Shown here piece after piece: positions 30,025 to 39,321 of a DNA stretch of 64,000 bases. Under the pieces are notes generated by a model. That model worked only from the letters and a program-made list of their open reading frames with translations. It was not told the origin of the DNA and did no database searches. Position numbers and translations under genes: made by a program. The stretch's first letter is position 1; each line of letters begins with the position of its first letter. Origin of the DNA: Tsuneonella dongtanensis (lineage in GTDB: Bacteria > Pseudomonadota > Alphaproteobacteria > Sphingomonadales > Sphingomonadaceae); assembly GCF_001698205.1 (NCBI RefSeq), contig NZ_CP016591.1:1736001-1800000 (forward strand), written 5' to 3'.

Positions 30025-30163
30025 AAATGAGAAGGGCGGCATCTCATCGGAGATACCGGCCCCAATCGTTTGCCGAAATGAGAAGGGCGGCATCGCATCC
30101 GAGATACCGCCCCCAATCGTTTGCCGAAATGAGAAGGGCGGCATCTCATCCGAGATACCGCCC
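30025..30163. repeat. Three tandem 51-bp repeats with hairpins
   Basis: Copies begin at 30025, 30076 and 30127 (AAATGAGAAGGGCGGCAT each); the third stops matching after about 37 nt. Each copy holds an inverted repeat (arms GGGCGGCATCTC and GAGATACCGCCC, 4-nt loop). As minus-strand RNA one pair is a U-G wobble, so the hairpin is almost perfect and is followed by TTCTCATTT, a weak terminator-like tail; as plus-strand RNA there is a C-A mismatch. The array sits between a minus-strand small ORF and ilvE. The 51-nt period lets frames run through it, but I see no real protein. Confidence 0.85.
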
Positions 30164-30175
30164 TTCGCATGGTCA

Positions 30176-30192
30176 GCGGCCGGTTCGGCCGC
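30176..30192. other. GC-rich hairpin GCGGCCG-GTT-CGGCCGC
   Basis: A perfect 7-bp stem with a 3-nt loop between the small ORF stop and the tandem repeats. Together with a GGTCG-GTGA-CGACC hairpin (30241-30254, minus strand, GNRA-type loop) inside the small ORF and a CCCCCG/CGAGGGG hairpin at 30310-30328 in its 5' leader, it makes the whole minus-strand leader highly structured. Confidence 0.6.
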
Positions 30193-30219
30193 CCACGAAG
30201 CCTCTATCGGCGTCAGAGA

Positions 30220-30276
30220 TTACCGATAATGCCTCGCGAGGGTCGTCACCGACCTCCCTGCTGAACCATGAGACAT
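30220..30276 (-). CDS. 18-codon small ORF with perfect Shine-Dalgarno
   Basis: ATG at 30276 to TAA at 30220 encodes MSHGSAGRSVTTLARHYR. Upstream, GAAAGGAGGTGATCC (30292-30278) is complementary over 15 nt to the canonical 3' tail of bacterial 16S rRNA, with a 7-nt gap from GGAGG to the ATG. The peptide is basic and has only one Val and one Leu, so it is not a classical branched-chain attenuator peptide despite lying upstream of ilvE. I do not recognise the peptide. It could be a translated regulatory leader, or a ribosome-binding RNA in which translation is incidental. Confidence 0.6.
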   Translation of the reverse strand: MSHGSAGRSVTTLARHYR

Positions 30277-30362
30277 CGGATCACCTCCTTTCGCGCTTCT
30301 AGAGCCAGACCCCTCGTTTCACCGGGGGCCGAGAGCCGCGTGGGTCGCTGGCCTCGTCAGGG

Positions 30363-30391
30363 AATGTGAGTCTTTCAGCGCCGCAAGACAA
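30363..30391 (-). promoter_or_regulatory. Probable strong promoter of the ilvE-upstream leader
   Basis: On the minus strand TTGTCT (30391-30386), a 17-nt spacer and CACATT (30368-30363) give a sigma70-like promoter; an A/T-rich tract GAAAAACTAAAATTCAA just upstream resembles an UP element. Transcription would begin near 30356, giving an 80-nt structured 5' leader before the small ORF. Confidence 0.5.
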
Positions 30392-31053: not shown

Positions 31054-31854
31054 ATGGGAAAGAAGCGCCTCGACCAATTGATCGTCGATCGCGGGCTCGC
31101 CGAAAGTCGCAGCCGTGCGCAGGCGCTGGTCATGGCGGGTCTGGTCTTCTCGGCTGGGCGCAAGCTCGACAAGCCGGGCCACCAGCTTGCCGAAGATGCC
31201 GAGATCGACGTGCGCGGGCGCGACCATCCGTGGGTTTCGCGCGGGGGCATCAAGCTGGCGCACGCTATCGAAGCCTTCGGACTCGATCCCGCAGGCGCGA
31301 CTGCGATGGACATCGGCAGTTCGACCGGCGGGTTCACCGACGTTCTTCTGCAAGGCGGGGCGCGCCGCGTTTTCGCGGTCGATTCGGGCACGAACCAGCT
31401 CGCATGGAAGCTCCGGCAGGATCCGCGGGTCACGGTGCTCGAACAGACGAGCGCGCGGGTGCTGACGCCGGCGATGATCGACGCGCCGTGCGACTGGGTC
31501 GTCTGCGATGCCTCCTTCATCGGATTGTCGAAGGTCCTTCAGCGACCGCTCGAGCTTGCCGCGTCCGATTGCCGTCTGGTCGCCTTGATCAAGCCCCAGT
31601 TCGAGGTTGGCCGCGACGAGGTGGGCAAGGGCGGGGTGGTCCGCGATCCGCAGCTTCACGCGCGCGTCTGCGACGAGGTGCGCGAATGGCTCGAATCGGG
31701 CGGCTGGGCCGTCGACGGAATCGTCCCCAGTCCCATCACGGGACCCGAGGGCAATGTGGAGTTCCTCATCGCCGCGCGACGTGGCACCGTTGCGCCCGCA
31801 TCGGTGGTCGGCCACACAACCATCGACGATTCGGTTTCGACGGAGAATCCATGA
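31054..31854 (+). CDS. tlyA: TlyA-type rRNA 2'-O-methyltransferase
   Basis: 266 residues from ATG 31054 (GKKRLDQLIVDRGLAESRSRAQALVMAGLV is the S4 RNA-binding domain at about 2-60). An FtsJ-like methyltransferase domain follows, with MDIGSSTGGFTDVLLQGGARRVFAVD as motif I and PQFEVGRDEVGKGGVVRD. Members methylate ribose of specific rRNA cytidines; some are called hemolysin A. Overlaps tspO by ATGA, so the two are coupled. Confidence 0.9.
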   Translation: MGKKRLDQLIVDRGLAESRSRAQALVMAGLVFSAGRKLDKPGHQLAEDAEIDVRGRDHPWVSRGGIKLAHAIEAFGLDPAGATAMDIGSSTGGFTDVLLQGGARRVFAVDSGTNQLAWKLRQDPRVTVLEQTSARVLTPAMIDAPCDWVVCDASFIGLSKVLQRPLELAASDCRLVALIKPQFEVGRDEVGKGGVVRDPQLHARVCDEVREWLESGGWAVDGIVPSPITGPEGNVEFLIAARRGTVAPASVVGHTTIDDSVSTENP

Positions 31855-38926: not shown

Positions 38927-38970
38927 AATTCGGACACTTCCCATTAAGCCGGCATCGCCTATATCGGGCG

Positions 38971-39321
38971 GTGCCGGTTTCGACCGGCTATGGCGATAAA
39001 CTGCGGCGTGCAATAGGCGCAGCGGACCCGGGGGCAGTACCCGGCGGCTCCACCACCTCTTCCGGTCGTTGCGGAGGAAATGACGGGGCCGAACCAGGAT
39101 CGACGTGTGCTGAAAAGCGCTGTTTTCGCCCGGGCTGAGTAACCCGCAAATAGGCTCACAACACACAAGTGCCAACGACAACGAAGCACTTGCTCTCGCT
39201 GCGTAATTCTAGGGCCTAACGGCCTGAAGTTACAAAGACTTGAGCACGGTTCGGACCGAACCGGGTAACAGAATCGGAAACCGGGCGTCCGGGGGTACGT
39301 AGCAACAGAAACCCCCACCTT
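38971..39321 (+). ncRNA. ssrA: tmRNA, two-piece permuted form
   Basis: The acceptor piece comes first and ends with CGGCTCCACCA at 39055; the coding piece starts about 39085 with GGGGCCG, which pairs with CGGCTCC to make the acceptor stem (one G-U). After an intervening stretch to be removed, the coding piece carries the tag reading frame at 39171-39206 (GCC resume codon): ANDNEALALAA then TAA. The permuted order is typical of alphaproteobacteria. The 3' end includes a GGGGGT/ACCCCC hairpin. Outer ends are approximate. Confidence 0.92.

Follow-up and report, generated by a model that had tools for sequence, protein, structure and literature searches.

A predicted minus-strand small RNA gene in Tsuneonella dongtanensis carries an extended Shine-Dalgarno (SD) sequence, GAAAGGAGGTGATCC (30278 to 30292), that is a perfect complement of the 16S rRNA 3′ tail and is followed, after a single G, by an 18-codon open reading frame (ORF), MSHGSAGRSVTTLARHYR plus TAA (30220 to 30276). 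Positions refer to the window, the whole 64,000-nucleotide stretch of DNA that was analyzed. Judged from sequence, the locus is homologous to the Rfam family RF01867 (CC2171), though it scores below the formal cut-off. RF01867 kin reach across much of the bacterial class, and their most invariant part is the perfect complement of the ribosome's mRNA-docking tail; the openness of the frame is kept, and the peptide is not. Our leading reading, held tentatively and with a little less than even confidence, is that this is a stand-alone, CC2171-related small RNA gene that engages ribosomes and would act in trans as RNA, neither via its peptide nor on ilvE. Neither the relation to RF01867 nor the long-range P1 helix reported below was part of the preliminary description of this DNA.

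Members and samples

The selection sample comprised 113 distinct members (117 in total) from BLAST, exact-pattern, and model searches. The filter for members required ATG, GTG, or TTG and then TC or TT; three exceptional loci (L085, L100, and L127) were admitted manually. Because the searches favor the SD core and the filter prescribes these letters, the apparent conservation of the start and of the second codon is in part a product of the selection. Loci left out were duplicates (L001, L002, L054, L082, L086, L088, and L090), L131, which is the 16S locus, L047 and L053, both presumed to match by chance, and four model matches without the SD core (L114, L118, L119, and L123). The model-search sample consisted of 30 loci and 40 further stretches that were read, out of 96 genomes matched among 385, and 80 named loci entered only the names, the peptides, and the ilvE count. 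For alignment A1, L027 and L057 were excluded and L022 was shortened, since the terminator assignment was doubtful in all three.

Pairing with 16S rRNA

The 16S 3′ end of the same genome (locus L131, the sole one located by exact pattern) reads ...GCGGCTGGATCACCTCCTTTCTAAGG, so the element can form 15 Watson-Crick pairs with it, plus a possible G·U at the next base, which is the one directly before the start codon. The perfect 15-nt anti-16S match, the 18-codon ORF (30276 to 30220), the 7-nt spacing from GGAGG to ATG, and the minus-strand assignment, all of them claims of the preliminary description, were thereby confirmed. The duplex of element and 16S tail was predicted at −29.5 kcal/mol (duplexfold), compared with −11.6 kcal/mol for an 8-nt SD. 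The pattern AAGGAGGTGATCC-N(0-10)-ATG has a single site in the whole genome (reported twice, since two ATGs lie downstream); AGGAGGT-N(3-10)-RTG is frequent genome-wide (62 sites versus 50 in the reversed control).

Such a 15-mer is expected by chance 0.0001 times per 64-kb window, which argues against a chance match. A stray fragment of a 16S gene would account for the plus strand reading as the last 15 nt of 16S rRNA, but flanking 16S sequence is absent beyond those 15 nt. Conservation of the frame, P1, and the terminator across the class refutes both origins, and we regard them as next to impossible.

Distribution across Alphaproteobacteria

BLASTN with a 241-base query found the element in 29 of 60 genomes (its own included), all 29 being among the 36 genomes of the same family, and in 0 of 24 genomes from other families of the order. 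A pattern search allowing up to 2 mismatches matched 32 of the 60 (reversed control, 1). Of these, 29 are among the 36 family genomes; the other three, from the 24 genomes outside, carry 2 mismatches each and are probably due to chance. With BLASTN and the pattern combined, 32 of the 36 family genomes were positive, G013 solely at 2 mismatches. Two family genomes (G071 and G021) hold a further copy or candidate that has diverged. Throughout 28 aligned family members, GAAAGGAGGTGA and then CCGATGTCTCATGGT were invariant, save for a one-base T deletion in three.

Within the class, AAGGAGGTGATCC-N(0-6)-ATG occurred in 34 of 385 Alphaproteobacteria (reversed control, 1), 31 of the 34 having exactly one base between AAGGAGGTGATCC and ATG; L047 and L053, where the spacing is different, look like chance matches. 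Searched across 299 Pseudomonadota, AAAGGAGGTGATCC-N-RTG was found in 45. All 45 belong to the Alphaproteobacteria, of which 86 were included, and each holds a single exact copy; the 213 other genomes gave none, and neither did the reversed control. Named genomes, when scanned, gave at least 119 stretches. The 80 loci listed included Sphingomonas, Novosphingobium, Erythrobacter, Bradyrhizobium, Bosea, Methylobacterium, Ancylobacter, Rhodobacteraceae, Brevundimonas, Acetobacteraceae, Azospirillum, and others, together with two titled just Proteobacteria and one titled SAR92 (a gammaproteobacterial name), the last possibly a binning error or a chance match.

Distant BLAST searches gave no match against phages and one 29-base match against plasmids (Azospirillum). 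The exact pattern was also present in six contigs of a viral collection (L292 to L297), some of them near contig ends; in five of these contigs the ORFs resemble those of bacterial members, and L296 has a 71-codon ORF instead. The viral-collection contigs are perhaps prophage junctions adjoining the RNA gene.

Relation to RF01867

A search with cmscan and E values matched positions 30136 to 30300 (minus strand) to the full length of RF01867 (CC2171, "caulobacter sRNA"; model positions 1 to 159 of 159) at 60.8 bits (E value, 3.8e-12), below the gathering score of 75. At the gathering threshold, the Rfam matches in the window were two tmRNA models and one tRNA, with none to RF01867. CC2171 is a Caulobacter sRNA that reportedly has its source in Landt et al. 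2008. RF01867 also matched 18 of 20 further loci, all below the cut-off (0 of 20 at the gathering threshold), the weakest two with E values of 0.021 and 0.025; L041 and L058 gave no RF01867 match. When 385 genomes of the class were searched with the model, 96 matched at an E value of 0.01, 13 of them above the 75-bit cut-off; 2 of 14 control genomes matched (Caulobacter vibrioides and Deinobacterium chartae), one, presumably Caulobacter, above the cut-off.

The SD, the start, and the pre-terminator segment are common to members scoring from about 29 to 91 bits against RF01867, and the 4 of 40 fetched model-match stretches that have no SD lie at the weak end of the scores. The closing helix of RF01867, formed by a UCUCAU segment and the pre-terminator segment, is present in the window, where it does not belong to the predicted minimum.

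Two paralogs occur in one family relative (G071; L080 and L057), one of MSHC type and near the RF01867 consensus (68.9 bits) and the other of MSHG type. The window also holds a permuted alphaproteobacterial tmRNA gene (38934 to 39297, plus strand).

Conservation of the start site and the open frame

Among the 88 members not selected by exact pattern, 83 had ungapped sites and 5 had a one-base deletion. Positions 2 to 10 and 13 of AAAGGAGGTGATCC were invariant in the 83 ungapped sites, membership being limited to at most 2 mismatches in 13 bases. Counted as cells rather than events, 25 of 29 substitutions (A1G, 3; A11G, 13; C14T, 9) retain pairing with the 16S tail via G·U, assuming a shared tail, which was read in the window's genome only; the other 4 break pairing. 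ATG, GTG, or TTG stood one place behind the site at 117 of 119 loci with an SD core, the remaining two being judged chance matches. The 113 distinct members start with ATG (71), GTG (34), or TTG (8); in 109 of them TCN follows as the second codon, a count partly built in by the filter.

The frame is at least 14 codons long in all 113 members and at most 36 codons long in 111. Codons 4 to 14 were open in 42 of 42 representatives, compared with 26.2 expected from base shuffles (P, ~7e-10, independence assumed); the shifted frames over the same codons were open in 22 and 28 of the 42. Values of pN/pS were 1.26, 1.47, 0.72, 1.14, and 0.99 for five groups, the first of which contains two of the others, and no excess of third-position differences was detected in any of the five. 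By pN/pS in these overlapping groups, purifying selection on the peptide thus appears undetectable. The best reading of these comparisons is that the short frame is retained for the act of translation, its product probably being unimportant. An open frame could also reflect avoidance of minigene toxicity, and translation would still be implied.

A small mRNA for a functional micropeptide, equipped with a maximal ribosome binding site, would likewise conserve the openness of the frame, and it would suit the 18-codon length in 28 of 30 MSHG-type members, the TWIxAS or EQP segments that recur within clades, and the 55- to 59-codon signal-peptide-like ORF of Azospirillum-type and similar members. 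We consider this quite improbable: in all but one of the five groups (0.72), pN/pS, which RNA structure may bias, is near or above 1, no third-position excess accompanies it, and the peptides look unrelated between families. A peptide gene as the sole function was rejected on the lack of detectable purifying selection (pN/pS, 0.72 to 1.47). The longer ORFs stand behind the shared SD and start in L034, L093, L190, and L251 (Azospirillum and some others).

The preliminary description looked to relatives for conservation of the SD, the peptide, and the hairpins: the SD, structure, and the open frame are kept, but the peptide sequence varies.

RNA structure and terminators

P1 is a long-range helix that joins codons 2 to 8 with the pre-terminator segment. 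In the window, its 5′ arm, CATGGTTCAGC (30260 to 30270, minus strand), covers ORF codons 3 to 6 and is nearly invariant within the family; its 3′ arm, GCTGACCATG, lies at 30168 to 30177 on the same strand and is likewise nearly invariant there. Both arms are supported by a permutation test in 42 representatives, in which 20 nt from +5 was paired with 34 nt at the terminator start, using own or swapped partners. Own partners gave −611.9 and swapped partners −419.6 (SD, 17.6 to 17.8; z, −10.9; 0 of 20,000 and 0 of 5,000 permutations). Control z values were −0.7 to −2.5 for shuffled or reversed arms, −2.0 for upstream sequence, and −3.6 (1 of 5,000), −0.8, and +0.8 for segments at +25, +35, and +45, respectively. 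The signal at +25 is read as an extension of the P1 helix, and the other shuffled, reversed, and upstream controls, mostly near a z of −2, reflect base composition. Member by member, own P1 arms pair better than 95% of foreign arms in only 49 of 111. An initial test using the whole downstream region was discarded, as terminator arms dominated the signal (median rank, 0.24; rank ≤0.05 in 19 of 113).

The window RNA folds more stably than its shuffles (z, −5.5), and P1 is absent from the predicted minimum. Forcing P1 carried a median cost of 5.4 kcal/mol across 110 of 111 members (one exceeded the length limit), and 41 of the 110 stayed within 3 kcal/mol. P1 is taken as real because of covariation. 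The L034 RNA has a strong P1 (−25.9 kcal/mol) across its longer ORF. In the family alignment, both-sided changes occurred in 16 of 47 predicted pairs; since the P1 arms are nearly invariant in this family, P2 and the terminator are the source of its covariation. P2 (30197 to 30235, minus strand) is a hairpin that contains the ORF end and the stop codon and shows such changes. P3 (GCGGCC/GGCCGC; 30176 to 30192, minus strand) is a hairpin predicted in the window fold whose 3′ strand shares bases with P1; the consensus fold uses the P3 letters to extend P1 instead, and the two are likely alternative pairings. As to the three leader hairpins proposed earlier, a CGGTGAAACG stretch recurs in close relatives; the structure that has support is found past the start codon.

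The terminator hairpin of the RNA spans 30133 to 30166 (minus strand). A finder placed a terminator in 111 of 113 members, 61 to 236 nt past the start codon, with a few placements doubtful, and gave none for L029 and L063. Two extra tandem copies of the terminator unit occupy the interval between the RNA and ilvE (30025 to 30126, minus strand), and from the sequence the unit appears to have been duplicated twice toward ilvE. Positions 30025 to 30177 consist of three 51-nt tandem repeats, each with a terminator-like hairpin.

An internal anti-SD switch was also tested and is not proposed as a general feature (mean z, −0.93 in 113 members; cognate-versus-permuted z, −1.0, not significant; weak in the window's family). 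In some clades an internal anti-SD partner stands out, with CCTGGATCGTCGCCTCC or GGAGCAACCTCC in a constant position and z values down to −4.2.

Genomic neighborhood and expression

The gene downstream in the window encodes a branched-chain aminotransferase (ilvE_II; TIGR01123), and a leader controlling ilvE had been among the first suggestions. A cis leader or attenuator of ilvE that responds to translation would fit the IlvE-coding sequence found downstream on the same strand near 37 of 59 MSHG-type loci; however, none of the 102 other loci, some of which are short, had such a sequence nearby, terminators intervene (in the window, three copies of the unit separate ilvE from the RNA), the ORF has no run of Ile, Leu, or Val codons, and the loci read outside the MSHG type have unrelated or opposite-strand genes downstream (gene names there being a reading of the sequences, not model matches). 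The attenuator was rejected on the absence of ilvE from the non-MSHG loci and on the intervening terminators, and any leader role for ilvE is very unlikely. Because neighbors differ between families, the RNA is taken to be a separate transcription unit.

Close to the RNA gene, the opposite strand carries a TlyA-family rRNA 2′-O-methyltransferase gene (31054 to 31854, plus strand), whose proximity is probably a coincidence.

A putative promoter, TTGTCT-17-CACATT (30363 to 30391, minus strand), would place the start site at about 30356. The promoter, strong-looking at first sight, fared unevenly: in a hand-picked alignment of the window and 17 relatives, CTTG was kept in 18 of 18 and exact CACATT in 11 of 18, but a scan for the sigma-70 consensus detected no promoter at 30391 to 30363. 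Within the portions of the literature available, the sole expression evidence found for RF01867 relatives is MH_s33, a 215-nt transcript annotated as RF01867 and detected by RNA-seq in Mesorhizobium huakuii (PMC5596092).

Proposed function

With the element conserved and the 16S match not due to chance, a ribosome-titrating or translation-sensing RNA, as suggested at the outset, is still the best class of explanation. Titration of ribosomes by a single-copy gene would need high expression. For a CC2171-related RNA that engages ribosomes, we propose that pairing with the 16S tail would capture the 30S subunit and that P1, which starts two codons past the start and lies inside the initiation footprint, would delay or gate its entry, until translation of the short frame opens P1. 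By capture, gating, and opening through translation, the RNA could read or buffer the supply of initiating 30S subunits, and its action in trans may consist of holding the 30S subunit or of exposing or hiding the P1 arms. An initiation complex may have no room for a 15- to 16-nt duplex that ends one base before the start, and full pairing and initiation could then be mutually exclusive. If 30S capture is true, the RNA would be a conserved regulator of ribosome supply in Alphaproteobacteria. A bolder version, which we think unlikely, would make the RNA the ribosome's equivalent of 6S RNA throughout the class: by docking on the entire 3′ tail of 16S rRNA in free 30S subunits, it would hold them back from initiation or meter them into it, and the short frame would serve only for release or sensing.

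A different reading, unlikely in our judgment, is that of a conventional sRNA acting by base pairing, or of a sponge that soaks up anti-SD sRNAs carrying CCUCC loops; the ribosome binding site would then be bait, or its translation secondary. Such anti-SD sRNAs exist, according to the passages available, as SisA-D in Caulobacter (PMC12559287) and as CCUCCUCCC-loop RNAs in Rhizobiales (PMC3927594), and a stand-alone gene with a terminator would suit this role. The conserved letters, however, suit the 16S tail (CCUCCUUUC and GGAUC) and not CCUCCUCCC, and neither GATCC nor an open frame would be necessary for a GGAGG bait. In Caulobacter, the passages available from one study of genome architecture give SD sequences in 24.6% of coding sequences only and report that two predicted noncoding RNAs, unnamed in those passages, are translated (PMC4117421).

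Comparison with known systems

In the literature searched, as far as its available parts go, CC2171/RF01867 appeared in tables only (a structure-improvement table of Rfam 15 and the M. huakuii study [PMC5596092]), and no described function for RF01867 was found; the titles and abstract starts among the literature matches listed do not describe the present architecture. The window RNA shares with RF01867 the 5′ part CAACAA-GAAAGGAGGUGAUCC-start-UCUCAU, the closing helix, and the terminator, in an alignment spanning model positions 1 to 159. It differs in having an ATG start, an MSHG frame, and a longer 5′ leader, whereas RF01867 has a GTG start and an MSHC frame. Rfam types RF01867 as an sRNA, and the model output shows neither an ORF nor 16S pairing.

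The dual-function sRNA rnTrpL/peTrpL is likewise a small transcript with a short ORF (PMC10117765), but it is described in the available text as a leaderless attenuator product with a functional peptide, and here the peptide is not conserved. SprF1 of Staphylococcus aureus, a ribosome-binding RNA antitoxin, would resemble the present RNA in action: the passages available describe a purine-rich segment at its 5′ end through which it binds ribosomes and reduces initiation (PMC8938821). The counterpart here is 16S complementarity in sequence only, and in the present RNA a start codon and an ORF follow the segment. Extended SD initiation in S. aureus also involves pairing past the canonical SD helix; there, the part of the report available describes two extra pairs, with A1543 and U1544 of the 16S 3′ region (PMC13009471), whereas the present RNA has a 15-nt complement that ends one base before the start codon and belongs to a single dedicated RNA.
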